Part shown: positions 48,144 to 55,157 of the stretch, one piece after another
Layout: each line of letters begins with the position of its first letter
Numbering within the stretch: the stretch's first letter is position 1
Assembly (NCBI RefSeq): GCF_000217815.1
Contig: NC_015707.1
Location: 1-64,000, forward strand
Reading direction: 5' to 3'
From: Pseudothermotoga thermarum DSM 5069
GTDB lineage: Bacteria; Thermotogota; Thermotogae; Thermotogales; DSM-5069
DNA: 64,000 nucleotides
Program-made: the position numbers and the translations under genes
The notes under the pieces: generated by a model
What the model was told of the DNA's origin: nothing
The model's input: only the letters and a program-made list of their open reading frames with translations
Database searches by the model: none

Positions 48144-48509
48144 TTGAGAATGTACCTCATTTCAAGGGATTTTAAATTTGACGCCGCCCATAAGCTTGAA
48201 AAGTACCATGGGAAGTGTGAGGCACTACATGGGCATACTTACAAGCTTCGTGTGACCTTGATTGGCATTCCCAACGAAGAGGGGATGGTAGTTGATTTTG
48301 TGCAGTTGAAAACGATTGTTCAAGAAAAAGTCTTAAAGGTTTTAGATCATTCTTATTTGAACGAAATAATCCCACAACCAACCGCTGAAAACATAGCCAA
48401 GTGGATTTGGCAAATGCTCGAGGAATCTTTAACCTTCTCAAATTGCAAATTGTACGAAGTGATCGTTTGGGAAACGGAAGATTGCTTTGTTACATACAGA
48501 GGTGGCTGA
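48144..48509 (+). CDS. queD: 6-carboxytetrahydropterin synthase QueD
   Basis: Converts 7,8-dihydroneopterin triphosphate to 6-carboxytetrahydropterin on the way to queuosine. The 121-residue protein has the zinc histidines (FDAAHKLEKYHGK, HGHTYKL) and the catalytic Cys in KCEALHGH (CxxxHGH, the QueD/PTPS pattern and not the PTPS-III Glu variant). TTG 48144 is 5 nt after AAGGAG; ATG 48150 is an alternative. Its substrate is made by the FolE2 encoded next. Confidence 0.93.
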   Translation: MRMYLISRDFKFDAAHKLEKYHGKCEALHGHTYKLRVTLIGIPNEEGMVVDFVQLKTIVQEKVLKVLDHSYLNEIIPQPTAENIAKWIWQMLEESLTFSNCKLYEVIVWETEDCFVTYRGG

Positions 48510-48512
48510 TTC

Positions 48513-49316
48513 GTGAAAGACGTACAATCTCAACCCGATCGCAGAAACATCTACCTTCAAAGGGTTGGCATCAAAGGTTTACTTTATCCGATAACGGTTA
48601 TGGACCGGCAAAAAGGTTTTCAAGACACCGTTGCAACGATAAACATGTACGTTGATCTTCCTGTTCAATTCAGAGGTACTCACATGAGTAGATTCGTGGA
48701 AGTTTTAAACAAATATCACTTAGGCATAGATCCAAGGGTGTTGGGTGAATTGCTTGAAGAGTTGAGAAAAAAGCTAAAAGCCAAAACTGCAGTGGTTGAA
48801 ATCGAGTTCCCATACTTCATGACCAAAAAAGCACCAGTTACAAACGCGGAAGGATTTGTAAGCTATACATGCCGCATATTTGGGCAAAAGACGGAAGAAG
48901 GCTGTGACTTCACATTTTCCGTTGGTGTTCCTGTTATGACGCTTTGTCCTTGTTCGAAAGAGATCAGCGATAGAGGGGCTCATAACCAGCGAGCGGTCGC
49001 GTGGGTACACGTAAAGTCGAAAAGATTGATCTGGTTTGAAGAACTCATCCAGATTGCCGAGGAATCAGCGAGTGCACCTGTATTCACCGTTTTGAAGAGA
49101 CCAGACGAAAAGTTTTTGACCGAACATGCCTATGATAATCCAAGATTTGTCGAGGATTTGGCTCGAGAAATAGCTTTAAGGTTAAAATCGGATAAAAGAA
49201 TCGAATGGTATAAAGTTGAAGTGGAAAGCTTTGAATCGATTCACACACACAACGCTTATGCGTGTGTGATTTCGGAAAAGGAGGATTTTTCGAATGACGA
49301 TACAAGTCTTGGATAA
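48513..49316 (+). CDS. folE2: GTP cyclohydrolase FolE2 (type IB)
   Basis: Makes 7,8-dihydroneopterin triphosphate for folate and queuosine. The 267-residue product shows the FolE2 pattern: [14 protein letters not shown], the metal Cys in [12 protein letters not shown] and GAHNQRA. FolE2 can use several metals and often replaces zinc-dependent FolE. GTG start. 3 nt after queD and 23 nt overlap with thyX, tying pterin and thymidylate synthesis in one operon. Confidence 0.95.
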
Positions 49317-49956
49317 AGGCTTTGTAAAACTCATAGATCATTTGGGCAACGATTTGACTGCAGTCAGAGCCGCGAGAATATCCTTTGGAAAAGACGTCAT
49401 GGATGAAGAAAGAGACAAGCGTTTGATCGAACATCTTTTAAAAAACGGTCACGAATCCCCCTTTGAGCACATAGTTTTCACCTTTCATATTAAATGCCCA
49501 ATTTTTGTGGCAAGACAATGGATGAGACATAGAATAGCTTCTTACAACGAATTAAGTGGTCGTTACACTCAATTTGGCGAGGAATTTTACATTCCAAAAG
49601 CTGACGATCCAAGGCTTAAGTTAAGCGATCAGCAAAACGGGGAAATCTGTAGAATATTTGAGGATGCTTTCAACCAAGCGTACGATGTCTACAGAAAACT
49701 TTTGGATCTTAAGGTACCAAGGGAATTAGCAAGGATAGTTTTACCTTTATCGCTTTACACCGAGTTCATATGGTCTGTCAACGCGAGAAGTTTGTTCAAC
49801 TTTTTGTCCTTAAGAGCCGACTCACATGCGCAATTTGAAATGCAGCAGTATGCAAAAGCTGTGGCAACTATATTCAAGCAAATTTGCCCTTGGACGTACG
49901 AAGCATTCATCAAGCATCGTTACACTGGGGATTTGTTGAAGGAGGGGGAAGTATGA
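49294..49956 (+). CDS. thyX: Flavin-dependent thymidylate synthase
   Basis: Methylates dUMP using methylene-tetrahydrofolate, FAD and NADPH. The ThyX signature [14 protein letters not shown] (RHRx7S) is intact, after [20 protein letters not shown]. 220 residues, normal length. AAAAGGAGG is 11 nt upstream. Its stop overlaps the next start (ATGA). Confidence 0.97.
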
Positions 49957-50306
49957 AGTTAAGTGAGATATTGCAAGAGTTAAAGGCAACAGTTCTTGCC
50001 AATCCTCATCTTGTTGATCAACTTGAATTCGAATATGTGGCCGCTTCAGATTTGATGAGCGATGTTCTTGCCATAGCTAGGCCAAACATGTTGCTTTTAA
50101 CAGGCCTTTCTACCCCACAAGTTGTGCGTACGGCGGATGTCGTTGGTTTGAAAGCAGTGGTGATAACAAGAAGAGATGTCGTTCCTGAGGAAACGATCAA
50201 ATTGGCTCAAGCTTGTGGAATAGTTCTTGCGGTAACCAAGATGACCATGTTTGAAGCCTGCGGGAGATTGTATTGCAAAAGACTAAAACCAATCTGGGAA
50301 GTGTAA
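49953..50306 (+). CDS. DRTGG-domain protein 1
   Basis: 117 residues made up of a single DRTGG domain ([36 protein letters not shown]). Such domains occur in regulatory regions of phosphotransacetylase and pyrophosphatases, where they seem to sense ligands. No catalytic residues. ATG 49953 overlaps the thyX stop after GGAGGGGG. First of five linked signalling genes. Confidence 0.85.
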
Positions 50307-50310
50307 AGGA

Positions 50311-51264
50311 ATGGAGAAGGTATTAGAAAAAGTCCAAAGTTTCTTTTTGGACATGCCAATAACTGAGATAATGACTACGAATGTTATCTCCATTAAACCT
50401 GACAGAACATTGAAACAAGTTAAGGAGATAATGAGAATAAAGAGAATATCAGGTTTGCCGGTGATCGATGACAACCGAAGATTGATAGGAATAGTGAGCA
50501 TTGAGGACATCATAAAAGCTCTTGAAGGTGGGTACATCAACGACAAAGTGGAGGAAAGAATGACAAGAAACGTTGTTTATCTGAAAAACACCGATACCCT
50601 CAGGGATGCGATAGAAGTTTTTGAAAAATACACGTACGGTCGATATCCTGTGGTGGATGAGGAAATGAGATTGGTTGGCATTGTGACCAAGATGGACATC
50701 ATCACCGCAATTCTTACAAAATTGGGCCTGGTTTACCTTCACGATGAGAGAAGAAGAGAAGTTTTGGAGAGCAAGGAATACTACGATAGATCGTTGATCA
50801 CCGGTGAAACATTGAACAAAACGGGTGCAGATTTTGTCTTCGTGATAGATTACTTTGACATAAATTTGGCTGGTATAGGTGCTTCAAAGCTTAGACAATT
50901 TTTGCTTTCCAAGGGTGTTGATGAGCAAACGGCTCGAAGAGTTGCCATCGCCACTTATGAAGCAGAAACAAATGTTGTGATACACAGCGGGAGCACGGGA
51001 GTAATATATTGCTTTGTGAGACCTGATACGATTTACGTTCGAGTGGAAGATTATGGCAAAGGAATTGAGGACATAGAGCTTGCCATGAAGGAAGGATATT
51101 CAACTGCGCCCGATTACGTGCGCGAACTTGGCTTTGGTGCAGGTATGGGAATGGCAAATATGAAAAAATGTTCTGACAAAATGGTGGTTATGTCGAAGGT
51201 TGGTGCTGGTACCATCGTGGAAATGGAATTTGTGAGAAAGGGGGATCAGGGTGAAAATCTCTGA
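50311..51264 (+). CDS. CBS-pair sensor fused to a RsbW-like ATPase
   Basis: Two CBS motifs (residues ~17-71, ITEIMTTNVISIKPDRTL; ~80-135, MTRNVVYLKNTDTL) that should bind an adenosyl ligand, then a linker and a GHKL ATPase from ~175 to 310 with N-box YEAETNVVIHSG, G1 box DYGKGIED and G2 box GFGAGMGMANM. The ATPase is RsbW/SpoIIAB-like, with no DHp dimerisation helix or phospho-accepting His, so it would be a serine kinase or anti-sigma-type switch. 317 residues. Target unknown. It overlaps the second DRTGG gene by 14 nt. Confidence 0.87.
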   Translation: MEKVLEKVQSFFLDMPITEIMTTNVISIKPDRTLKQVKEIMRIKRISGLPVIDDNRRLIGIVSIEDIIKALEGGYINDKVEERMTRNVVYLKNTDTLRDAIEVFEKYTYGRYPVVDEEMRLVGIVTKMDIITAILTKLGLVYLHDERRREVLESKEYYDRSLITGETLNKTGADFVFVIDYFDINLAGIGASKLRQFLLSKGVDEQTARRVAIATYEAETNVVIHSGSTGVIYCFVRPDTIYVRVEDYGKGIEDIELAMKEGYSTAPDYVRELGFGAGMGMANMKKCSDKMVVMSKVGAGTIVEMEFVRKGDQGENL

Positions 51265-51583
51265 AATTGTCAAAAAACTTGGGCTTCAAGTTTGCTGTGG
51301 TGATTGCGAGCAAGAAATCACATACGGGTGCGTTGGAGATCTTCTGAGTGATGTTATGGCCACCGCAAAACCAAATTCAATTTGGGTTACTGTTCAATCC
51401 CACGTAAACATTGTGGCTGTTGCAACCATAAGTGGAATAAAAGCGATACTGCTATGCAACAACCATCAGTATTCGCATGAAACTTTGGCGAAAGCCCAGC
51501 AGGAAGGGTTGTGTCTTTTAAGGACTTCCAAAAGTCCTTTTGAAGTGGTTGGAGAGCTTTACCAAATGGGTGTCAAACCATGA
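51251..51583 (+). CDS. DRTGG-domain protein 2, cysteine-rich N-terminus
   Basis: 110-residue DRTGG relative of the protein encoded two genes upstream (SDVMATAKPNSIWVTV aligns with [16 protein letters not shown]). It differs in having four cysteines near the start (VCCGDCEQEITYGC) and a further CNN and CLL, which could bind a metal or act as a redox switch. GTG start after GGGGGATC; ATGA overlap with the PHP gene. Confidence 0.8.
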   Translation: MKISEIVKKLGLQVCCGDCEQEITYGCVGDLLSDVMATAKPNSIWVTVQSHVNIVAVATISGIKAILLCNNHQYSHETLAKAQQEGLCLLRTSKSPFEVVGELYQMGVKP

Positions 51584-52308
51584 ATTTCAAAGCTGATTTA
51601 CATATACATTCTTGCCTTTCGCCGTGCGCCGATATAACGATGGTTCCAAGTGTCGTGGAAAAAGCTTGCCTGGAAAAAAAACTGGACATAATCGCCATAA
51701 CGGATCACAATTCTTTTGAAAATTTAGAGGTGTTTCAAAAAAAGCTGAAAGAAACCTTGGTTTTACCAGCTGTAGAGCTTTGCTCAAAGGAAGAAGTGCA
51801 CGTGCTTGGTTATTTTGAAGATATCGACAAAGTGAAAAAGCTCTGCGAAGTGGTTAGAGAACGGTTGATAAAGTTTCCATACGATCCAGAGTTGGTTGGT
51901 TATCAATTGGTTTTAGGAGAAAACGAAGAGTTCACGGATATGATCGATGATGTTTTCTTAGGTGCCCCGCTTTTAATTTCGCTAGATGAACTGGTGGGGT
52001 TGATTTGTTCACTCGATGGAATAGCGGTTTATGCACATGTTGAAAGACAGTTTGGGGTATTATACCAGCTGGGTGTTTTTCCAGAAGATGACAGGGTGAA
52101 GATAGTTGAAGCAAGATCAAAGGAAGGTTGGCTGGCTGCAAAAAAACGAGGTTATGAGGTTATAAGTAGCTCCGATGCGCATATGCCAGATCAAATAGGC
52201 TGCAGATTCAGTTACATCGATGTTGGTGTTCTCACGACAAAAGAAATTATAAACGCGATGAGGTCACCTGAAGGAAGGTTGAAGTCTATATGGGACTTAG
52301 AACGATAG
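51580..52308 (+). CDS. PHP-domain phosphoesterase
   Basis: 242-residue metal-dependent phosphoesterase. PHP motifs are intact: DLHIHSCLSPCADI, IAITDHNSFEN, VLPAVELCSKEEVHVLGYF, YAHVERQFG and SSDAHMPDQIG. No polymerase or histidinol-phosphatase context. Substrate unknown; in this cluster it could remove phosphate from a protein or nucleotide messenger. It overlaps the next gene by 19 nt. Confidence 0.9.
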   Translation: MNFKADLHIHSCLSPCADITMVPSVVEKACLEKKLDIIAITDHNSFENLEVFQKKLKETLVLPAVELCSKEEVHVLGYFEDIDKVKKLCEVVRERLIKFPYDPELVGYQLVLGENEEFTDMIDDVFLGAPLLISLDELVGLICSLDGIAVYAHVERQFGVLYQLGVFPEDDRVKIVEARSKEGWLAAKKRGYEVISSSDAHMPDQIGCRFSYIDVGVLTTKEIINAMRSPEGRLKSIWDLER

Positions 52309-52838
52309 CAGATCATATAATGGATATCGTTCAAAATTCTTTTAACGCTGGAGCAACGAGAATCGTCTTAACCATAATTGAAAACAGTAGTGGCACCTTC
52401 TATTTTAAAGTTGAAGACAACGGTAGAGGAATGGATGAAGAAGAACTTCAAAAAGTTTTCGATCCTTTTTACACGACCAGAGATCATAGGATAAGAAAGG
52501 TTGGTTTGGGACTTCCGTTTTTAAAATATGCGGCAGAGCTTACAGGTGGAAAGGTGTCCATCCAAAGTCAAAAGGGTGTTGGAACAATTGTGGAAGCGAC
52601 TTTCAACACCCGTCATGTTGACTGTCAAGATGTTGGCGATCTTGCTGGAACCATATCAACGTTGCTTTTGATGGCAAATGATGTAGAATTGGTTGTGAAA
52701 AGATTCAAAGATGAGGAAGGTTATCAGCTTTCAAGTTCTGAATTGAAACAAAAGTTTGGTGATTTAAGTTCTCCCATCGTTATGAAAGTTGTTTTCGACC
52801 TTATAGAAGAACTTGAAGCATCTTTGAAAAAGGGGTGA
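52290..52838 (+). CDS. Stand-alone histidine-kinase-type ATPase domain
   Basis: 182 residues with the full GHKL set: N-box IMDIVQNSFNAGA, G1 VEDNGRGMDEEEL, F-box FDPFYTTRD and G2 VGLGLPFLKYAAE, followed by a ~50-residue helical tail. No sensor, HAMP or DHp region, and no response regulator nearby. Likely transfers phosphate to a partner or works as a switch. 4 nt before bamA. Confidence 0.87.
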   Translation: MGLRTIADHIMDIVQNSFNAGATRIVLTIIENSSGTFYFKVEDNGRGMDEEELQKVFDPFYTTRDHRIRKVGLGLPFLKYAAELTGGKVSIQSQKGVGTIVEATFNTRHVDCQDVGDLAGTISTLLLMANDVELVVKRFKDEEGYQLSSSELKQKFGDLSSPIVMKVVFDLIEELEASLKKG

Positions 52839-52842
52839 GAGG

Positions 52843-55080
52843 ATGAAGCGTCATCTTACTATTACTTTGTGTTTGTTACTGACTATTGTGATTTTTGGAA
52901 TAACCATTGGGGATGTAAGGTTCGAGGGTTTGATAACTATTGAAGAAAGTTATTTAAAACAACTTGTTTCTGATTATCTAAACGTCGAGCTCAACGAAAA
53001 AGGCGTGCAGGAAATGCTTCGAAAGATATTCGAAACCGGATATTTTTCCTCCCTCACGCCGAACTTGGTTTTCAACGGTAACTTTTATGTTTTGATTGTG
53101 AAGGTTGAGGAAAATCCAAAGATATCGGACTGGAGGATTGAGATCGTCGGACCTGGTTTGATAAAGAAAAAGGATCTTGAAGAAGCTGTCACAATCGAAA
53201 AAGGTAAGGCGTTGAACATAAACAAAATTCGTGAATCGCTTGAAAAGATAAAATCTCTATACGATTCTGAGGGATACTTTTTGATAGAAGTTGGTGGCGA
53301 GCTGGATAAAGATGTGTATATTCTGAAGATAGTTGAACATGCACTTTGGGAAATTTACTTTGAAGGCGAAACAGAGGGAATAGACTTTTCAAAGATCAGG
53401 AAGGAAATGAAAGTTGATACCTTGAAGGACTACTACACAACCCCAGGTATTCTAAGGGTGTTTTTGAAGGATATAAAAAGATGTTATCCAAAAAAGACAA
53501 CCATAATGGAAATAATGTCCGTTCTTTCCAAGTACGTTTACTTTGCACCGGAAACGTCAATTGATTTTGAGCCTATGGATATTCCCGGTGTAAAGGAACG
53601 TGTGGTTCGCATGAGGATAAACGTTGTTCAAAGAAAAATAATTGATAAACCGAAAAGTTTTGAGCAAATTCGCTTCACTGGAAATTCTCAGATATCTTCT
53701 TTGCAACTTTTGAACGTTACTCAGTTAAAAGAAGGGGAAACTTATTCCAACGCCGATATTTTAAAAGCGATGCAAACGATTGTTGATTTTTATAACGAAA
53801 AAGGGTTTGCGGGCGTTTCGGTTCAAGCCAAAGATTTAGGCAATATTTTGGAATTTGAAGTTTTTGAAAAATTCGTTGCCGATGTTCGTTTCGAGGGGTT
53901 GACTTTGACAAAACCCTATGTGATCAAGGATCTTATAACCTTTGAAAAAGGTGAGCCTTTGACAAAACAAGATTTTTACGACACGATATCTGCTCTCAAC
54001 CGAACACAATTTTTCGAATCGGCCTCGGTTTATCCAGTTGTGGAGAATGATCCAAGGTCTGCCGTTGTTGTTATTGACGTAAAGGAAAAGGAAAAGAAGT
54101 TCAACCTAAGTGGTGGAGTTGCATGGACTCCACTCAAAGATCGTCCATGGTACGAAGGCTTTGCTGGACAAGTGAGCCTTTCGACGATAAATCCCTTTGG
54201 TTACGGTGAAAGTTTTTCTTTCAACGGTGAACTTGGTTTTTATTCCACAAAAATAGATTTTTCGTTTTCGATCAGAAGGCCTTTTGACATCCCGGCAATA
54301 CTTGATGCCAATGTTGTATACCAAAGAGATTATGGTTTTGACAGTTCAACGGTATCTTTTGACATCTTCAAAATAGGTGGAAACATTTCAACACTTAGGT
54401 TGGATGGTCATAGTTTCGGTTTTGGTCCGGCCTACGAATGGAGAACTTATTATCCATCCTCAGGCAACATTCAAGAACAAACGCTGATCCTTTCGGCTAA
54501 CTATTCATACGACACAAGAAATAACGTTTTGTTCGCAACCAAAGGACAATATCTATCGATAGGCTTGCAAAAGGCAGGTTTATTCGATCCACTTGACGAC
54601 AGAAGTTACTGGAAAGCCACTCTCGATGCGAGGTATTTTATACCTCTGTTCAACGACAACCTTGCGCTTGGCTTTAGAGTCTACGGCACCACGCTGCTTT
54701 TTGAAAGTTACAGGAAAGAAAATGATTTTAAGAATGCCGGTATACCCGACGCAATCTATGGAGAATACATACTCTTCTACGGTATGAACGCCGTCAGAGG
54801 AATGGGTAGTAGCAAGGCAAAAGCCGGTGCTTTGGCTAGCGTTGAAATAAGATACGATTTGAAATCTCAAACTGTTCCAATATACCTTGTTGGATTTGCA
54901 GATGTTGGTGGTACTGGGAAATCTTTGACTGATTTGGATATAAACATTACAGCCGGTCCAGAACTTGATATCGTTGTACCCATGTTCGGTGCACTTGGTT
55001 TTGGTGTTGCATACCATTTTGATGGAAATTGGACCTGGGACAACTTGAAAACTTTCTTTAGATTCGGCTCGACTTTCTGA
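52843..55080 (+). CDS. bamA: Omp85/BamA outer-membrane assembly protein
   Basis: Inserts beta-barrel proteins into the outer membrane (toga). Signal peptide (residues ~1-20), four to five POTRA repeats (~24-400; for example DVRFEGLITIEESYLKQLV and ADVRFEGLTLTKPYVIKDL, each quoted in part), then a 16-strand barrel with GMNAVRGMGSSKAKAG (the conserved RG of loop 6) and a C-terminal Phe (FRFGSTF). 745 residues. Last gene in an operon with nucleotide and signalling genes, and with no skp, lpxD or fabZ as in proteobacteria. Confidence 0.95.
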   Translation: MKRHLTITLCLLLTIVIFGITIGDVRFEGLITIEESYLKQLVSDYLNVELNEKGVQEMLRKIFETGYFSSLTPNLVFNGNFYVLIVKVEENPKISDWRIEIVGPGLIKKKDLEEAVTIEKGKALNINKIRESLEKIKSLYDSEGYFLIEVGGELDKDVYILKIVEHALWEIYFEGETEGIDFSKIRKEMKVDTLKDYYTTPGILRVFLKDIKRCYPKKTTIMEIMSVLSKYVYFAPETSIDFEPMDIPGVKERVVRMRINVVQRKIIDKPKSFEQIRFTGNSQISSLQLLNVTQLKEGETYSNADILKAMQTIVDFYNEKGFAGVSVQAKDLGNILEFEVFEKFVADVRFEGLTLTKPYVIKDLITFEKGEPLTKQDFYDTISALNRTQFFESASVYPVVENDPRSAVVVIDVKEKEKKFNLSGGVAWTPLKDRPWYEGFAGQVSLSTINPFGYGESFSFNGELGFYSTKIDFSFSIRRPFDIPAILDANVVYQRDYGFDSSTVSFDIFKIGGNISTLRLDGHSFGFGPAYEWRTYYPSSGNIQEQTLILSANYSYDTRNNVLFATKGQYLSIGLQKAGLFDPLDDRSYWKATLDARYFIPLFNDNLALGFRVYGTTLLFESYRKENDFKNAGIPDAIYGEYILFYGMNAVRGMGSSKAKAGALASVEIRYDLKSQTVPIYLVGFADVGGTGKSLTDLDINITAGPELDIVVPMFGALGFGVAYHFDGNWTWDNLKTFFRFGSTF

Positions 55081-55129: not shown

Positions 55130-55157
55130 TTGATAGTTAACTATTTCATGCTATAAT
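55130..55157 (+). promoter_or_regulatory. Promoter of the yicC-to-transpeptidase operon
   Basis: TTGATA (55130-55135), 16-nt spacer, TATAAT (55152-55157), 20 nt before the TTG start. The 12-nt palindrome ATAGTTAACTAT (55133-55144) covers the -35, a place for a repressor. Confidence 0.72.

Follow-up and report, generated by a model that had tools for sequence, protein, structure and literature searches.

Five genes of Pseudothermotoga thermarum as the Thermotogota form of the putative clostridial group D HydS regulatory set

The genome of Pseudothermotoga thermarum DSM 5069 is a single contig (NC_015707.1; 2,039,943 bases), the first 64,000 nucleotides of which (the window) were analyzed here. 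Between thyX and bamA, at positions 49953-52838, five genes encode two small DRTGG-like proteins (D1 and D2), a SpoIIAB/RsbW-like GHKL ATPase bearing a fused pair of CBS domains (CBSK), a PHP-fold phosphoesterase (PHP) and a stand-alone GHKL ATPase (HATP). They are the Thermotogota form of the regulatory set that accompanies group D HydS, a putative H2-sensing hydrogenase, in Clostridia: all five families of the clostridial set (D1, GHKL ATPase, D2, PHP, and HATP) are present. The module differs in lacking group D HydS, in the CBS pair borne by its ATPase, and in its separation from the hydrogenase genes. By genomics, the five genes form one functional unit that is linked to ferredoxin/NAD enzymes and also, in the case of Clostridia, to group D HydS; set membership, gene order, and co-occurrence are conserved and the catalytic motifs are intact. 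The system is of a known kind, HydS genes near kinases and bifurcating hydrogenases, though uncharacterized, and candidate partners are named here.

The clostridial set and the exchange of its putative sensor

Searching the genome collection with a DNA pattern of the clostridial PHP motif returned at least 120 stretches, of which 80 loci, all from Bacillota, were mapped. The core order is D1-ATPase-HydS-D2-PHP, usually followed by HydC-HATP-HndB-HydB-HydA and sometimes by Rnf genes, and no fusions between module families were seen in the 80 loci. The open reading frame (ORF) maps are mechanical, and the profiles for several Hyd and Rnf subunits derive from single sequences. The HydS-like protein possesses 4Fe-4S domains, Fe_hyd_lg_C, and a C-terminal FeS domain; its cysteine spacing (Cx2Cx4Cx16C) agrees with the description of M2e/group D (PMC8163306). 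The group D (M2e) clusters of Thermoanaerobacter mathranii (TamHydS) and C. thermocellum (Cthe_0335 region) likewise have D1, ATPase, D2, and PHP around HydS in the same order, with HATP in the adjoining hydrogenase genes.

Of 293 Clostridia genomes, 140 carry PHP and 142 carry group D HydS, the latter with scores of about 320 bits or more; a match at 139 bits (G172) was left out of the count. Both occur together in 139 genomes, PHP alone in one, HydS alone in three, and neither in 150 (phi 0.97). Shared ancestry inflates any p-value for this pairing, the weight of which lies in the near lack of exceptions. HydS is located 5′ of PHP, on the same strand and within 8 kb, in 130 of the 139 genomes, and the median gap of 409 bases leaves room for D2. 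In a random sample of 40 loci, taken with about 9.5 kb on each side, D2 and PHP were present in all, HydS in 39, the ATPase in 38, and D1 in 37, the order being held wherever contigs allow. Hyd genes are adjacent in 30 of these (two continue into Rnf), Rnf without Hyd in one, and neither in nine.

In three genomes picked out as exceptions, a core without HydS continues into HATP and Rnf, and HydS is found elsewhere, twice by Nqr-like genes. Lone group D HydS genes by Nqr-like complex genes in two Clostridia lie at L260:6409-12600 and L262:2559-8230. At the clostridial loci L273 and L279, RnfCDGEAB comes immediately after HydC-HATP-HndB-HydB, and no HydA is visible.

Earlier papers had already placed group D HydS close to kinases and 5′ of bifurcating hydrogenases, leaving the signal route open (PMC8163306; PMC3561251), and how this protein transmits its signal is regarded as an open question (PMC8163306, PMC13104023). 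Our literature search, which left most subscription journals outside its reach, found no paper naming D1, D2, and PHP as HydS partners, and nothing relevant on DRTGG together with hydrogenase. An earlier note on this DNA, made from the sequence alone, had pointed to a link to bifurcating [FeFe] hydrogenases; this is supported, but group D HydS as the central partner and the link to Rnf had been missed.

HydS in the clostridial set and the CBS pair in that of Thermotogota stand in for each other. No group D HydS was found in 103 Thermotogota genomes, the best match (133 bits) being to longer group C-type frames. No gene lies between the ATPase and D2 genes in the window, whereas HydS occupies that place in Clostridia. 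The CBS pair is present on the Thermotogota ATPase in every full-length match, and the fusion was seen only in that phylum; the clostridial ATPase is about 140 residues long and has no CBS domain. In 12 clostridial genomes searched whole, only the C-terminal half of the ATPase query was matched, in frames of 147-195 residues. Phylogenetic analysis places the Thermotogota ATPases as one side of a 100/99 branch.

Distribution and gene order in Thermotogota

CBSK, PHP, and HATP are inherited together. Strong matches were found in 81, 82, and 83, respectively, of the 103 Thermotogota genomes; restricted to the 82 genomes of good quality, all three are present in 66 and none in 16, and no genome is mixed. 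These three families were followed genome by genome, and D1 and D2 at fetched loci; metagenome-assembled genomes may miss genes. Co-retention holds despite unlinking, with CBSK lying away from D2-PHP-HATP in genomes of family f2 (Thermotogota families are labeled f1 to f11, and genus labels such as Mesotoga-like are inferred) and HATP standing apart in T. maritima. Because co-inheritance is strict in 82 genomes and gene order is kept across two phyla, it is confirmed that the module lies far beyond chance. The earlier note had proposed such a module, and the neighborhood survey, in which the families occur together in both Thermotogota and Clostridia, bears it out as real and co-inherited.

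The order thyX-D1-CBSK-D2-PHP-HATP-bamA recurs in several Thermotogota families, as does the adjacency of thyX and D1, and HATP adjoins bamA in families f1, f2, f9, f10, and f11. D1 adjoins the ATPase gene in most of the Thermotogota loci that were mapped, likewise in Clostridia, and D2 lies directly 5′ of PHP, as it does in 40 of 40 clostridial loci sampled. Adjacency to HydABC or Rnf genes, which the window module does not show, was seen at two f8 loci (L069 and L081), where the module continues straight into HydC and HydB. The HydB family PF01512 was dropped as a profile marker, since RnfC and related subunits share it and it is present in 103 of 103 genomes. In a T. maritima-sized genome (G090), D1 adjoins a gene of the RseC_MucC family. 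One report describes rseC, a member of this family, as indispensable for autotrophy in C. ljungdahlii, along with the Rnf complex (PMC9124969).

The locus in P. thermarum and the hydrogenases of this genome

The ORF map agrees with the earlier note in the coordinates and order of the five genes (Table 1). Their description as overlapping applies at every junction except that of D1 and CBSK, where there is a 4-base gap. The D1 start is an ATG inside a longer ORF with a TTG start, its ATGA overlapping the thyX stop, and CBSK and D2 overlap by 14 bases. The strongest promoter-like site of the region (55130-55157) comes only 3′ of bamA, which makes a nine-gene operon from queD to bamA likely. Pfam scans revealed no HisKA domain in CBSK or HATP, and neither the module proteins nor the ten flanking genes that were scanned included a response regulator, in keeping with the earlier view that this is not a two-component system.

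Table 1. Genes of the module and its flanks in the P. thermarum window.
Gene	Position	Strand	Description
queD-like PTPS, folE2, thyX	48144-49956	+	Upstream part of probable operon
D1	49953-50306	+	117 aa, small DRTGG-like protein; invariant D33-x-M-S36, near-invariant Cys
CBSK	50311-51264	+	317 aa; two CBS domains fused to SpoIIAB/RsbW-like GHKL ATPase
D2	51251-51583	+	110 aa, second DRTGG-like protein; GTG start
PHP	51580-52308	+	242 aa, PHP-fold metal-dependent phosphoesterase, complete metal site
HATP	52290-52838	+	182 aa, stand-alone GHKL ATPase; carries a C-terminal extension of its own
bamA (Omp85)	52843-55080	+	Probable last operon gene

That the window holds no hydrogenase is literally true but misleading, because it stops at 64 kb and the hydrogenase genes follow further along the contig, at 86-98 kb; those for HydABC and group C HydS, together with a SpoIIE phosphatase, are 23-34 kb beyond the end of the window. 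The block at 90157-98263 encodes Rex, HydA, HydB, HydC, a SpoIIE-domain phosphatase, group C HydS, and a small 2Fe-2S protein. It is a group C HydS-SpoIIE phosphatase-HydABC cluster of the T. maritima TM1420-1426 type, with a putative sensory hydrogenase beside a bifurcating one; the module differs from it in both its genes and its distribution. In the T. maritima-sized genome G090 the group C HydS gene is split into two overlapping frames (L067:1767-3331), whereas in close relatives the frame is undivided and about 526 codons long. At 86028-90168 a monomeric HydA (583 aa) is encoded beside the genes of an apparent three-part ABC transporter, and HydA with such neighbors is also found elsewhere in Thermotogota (L068, L069, L206, L209, and L210).

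Component proteins, proposed mechanism and alternatives

The reading that we favor, at about even odds, is that the module is a cytosolic control unit for ferredoxin/NAD enzymes (HydABC, Rnf) in which an H2 sensor has been exchanged for a predicted nucleotide sensor. We infer ligands, phosphorylation, targets, and the direction of control as follows. The sensing part would be group D HydS (H2 or redox state) in Clostridia and the CBS pair (adenine nucleotides) in Thermotogota, and the sensor would act on the SpoIIAB-like ATPase by altering its kinase activity or its occupancy by ATP. D1 may be the direct partner or substrate of this ATPase, with invariant Ser36 as candidate site, and D2 with the PHP enzyme would reset the state. 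HATP, which travels with enzyme genes, could serve as an output adaptor acting on redox-enzyme assembly or activity.

CBSK scores above the Pfam cut-offs for CBS (113.7 bits), HATPase_c (35.2), and HATPase_c_2 (34.6), and the E-x-x-x-N box and GFGAGMG of its ATPase part are conserved in both phyla. Throughout the family, each of the two CBS repeats retains a motif of the G-h-h-S/T-x-x-D type. In CBS domains this motif touches the ribose of adenine nucleotides; its retention in both repeats makes plausible the earlier proposal that the pair reads the adenylate state, and binding of adenine nucleotides by CBSK is accordingly a prediction from sequence. The ATPase part has the GHKL fold and E-x-x-x-N box of the SpoIIAB/RsbW anti-sigma kinases, and SpoIIAB structures match it at E about 2e-6 and TIGR01925 at 62.4 bits; the CBS fusion sets CBSK apart from these kinases. 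This resemblance, and the location of a SpoIIE-domain phosphatase gene of P. thermarum beside those for group C HydS and HydABC, would suit classical partner switching, in which CBSK is an anti-sigma kinase phosphorylating an unlinked STAS protein and the SpoIIE-type phosphatase reverses the reaction. We think this distinctly unlikely: the TIGR01925 score of CBSK is far under the cut-off of 135, no STAS or sigma gene was recognized beside the module in the mapped loci, and the phosphatase travels with group C HydS, which is absent from many module-bearing genomes.

D1 and D2 are paralogous to each other, with an hhalign probability of 99.7. Their Pfam DRTGG scores in the window (18.1 and 22.0, respectively) are below the gathering cut-off of 25.2; nevertheless, a DRTGG match was obtained for 19 of 20 D1 and 18 of 18 D2 family members, and one clostridial D1 reaches 29.4 bits. 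Each has an invariant Asp and Ser three residues apart (D33/S36 in D1, D30/S33 in D2). The CBS-DRTGG inorganic pyrophosphatases also combine these two domain types and give weak sequence matches from D1 and D2, but here the domains are on separate proteins and the set includes no pyrophosphatase. The suggestion that D2 is a cysteine-rich redox sensor was rejected, as C15, C16, and C19 are present in only 2 of 13 Thermotogota sequences, and among 25 clostridial ones the counts are 0, 3, and 0, respectively. All 10 Thermotogota sequences of D1 and 23 of the 25 clostridial ones keep Cys102 (numbered on a 116-residue reading).

PHP exceeds the Pfam cut-offs for PHP (27.5 bits) and PHP_C (28.6 bits). 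Across 43 sequences, H43, E66, H74, H153, D199, and H201 of the metal site are invariant, and H8 and H10 are conserved in more than 90%. A search of PDB sequences gave no match. The AlphaFold model (mean predicted local distance difference test score, pLDDT, 97.3) is nearest in fold to endonuclease Q (EndoQ; template modeling score 0.72 by query), RNase AM, and an AMP phosphatase, and the sequence matches the TrlF family. That the kinase and PHP act oppositely on one target, as the earlier note proposed, stays a hypothesis. On these grounds, and with HATP nearest to MutL, one may consider a nucleotide-signal or RNA-processing unit, with PHP degrading an RNA or nucleotide signal sensed by the DRTGG and CBS domains and the GHKL proteins acting as ATP-driven clamps. 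Such a unit seems unlikely, since the strict pairing with group D HydS and Hyd/Rnf genes in Clostridia favors redox control, within which a nucleotide messenger would still be compatible.

HATP scores 64.3 bits for HATPase_c, over the cut-off, and the residues N16, D43, G47, G72, and G74 of its ATP-binding boxes are invariant in 42 sequences. Its AlphaFold model (pLDDT 91.6) is nearest to the ATPase domains of MutL and histidine kinases. A putative counterpart, matched by description, is HydE of A. woodii, a histidine-kinase-like ATP-binding protein encoded in the hyd operon (PMC3315566), as is clostridial HATP among Hyd genes, while HATP of the window adjoins bamA. HydD was rejected as the counterpart, this source naming HydE. 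HydE is missing from the purified active enzyme and "may be involved in assembly or signalling" (PMC3315566), which, along with the placement of HATP among enzyme genes, might indicate that the ATPases are not signalling proteins but chaperones in the assembly or repair of Fe-S/flavin redox complexes, serving HydABC or Rnf maturation. We hold this to be markedly improbable: Petrotoga-like genomes have HydABC and Rnf without the module, and sensor-type domains (CBS, HydS) would make little sense in a chaperone.

Several observations weigh against a control unit for ferredoxin/NAD enzymes. The module of P. thermarum has thyX and bamA as its neighbors instead of redox genes. Mesotoga-like genomes (G023; L076, L220) have the full module and only one monomeric HydA, with HydABC and HydS not found, and the Petrotoga-like genomes present the reverse, so the module is neither required for HydABC nor limited to it and strict dependence was rejected. 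The nearest folds to PHP, being nucleases and nucleotidases, make a role on RNA or a nucleotide signal possible. Finally, neither the scanned proteins of the window nor the mapped loci revealed a STAS protein or sigma factor close by, unlinked genes not having been searched.

More tentatively, the control unit may be one version of an ancient core (D1, ATPase, D2, PHP, and HATP) with swappable sensors, an H2-sensing hydrogenase in the clostridial version and an adenylate-sensing CBS pair in that of Thermotogota; either version would steer ferredoxin/NAD enzymes, and the partners of the GHKL kinase would be DRTGG rather than STAS proteins. This wider proposal is possible but doubtful; if true, an ancient core with exchangeable sensors would constitute a new class of partner-switching system. 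The near-perfect co-occurrence names the ATPase, D1, D2, and PHP as likely partners of group D HydS, and the Thermotogota version, made of small, soluble, and probably thermostable proteins without an H-cluster, is suited to tests of mechanism. The subject bears on the control of H2 output and of the ferredoxin/NADH balance in fermenting anaerobes.

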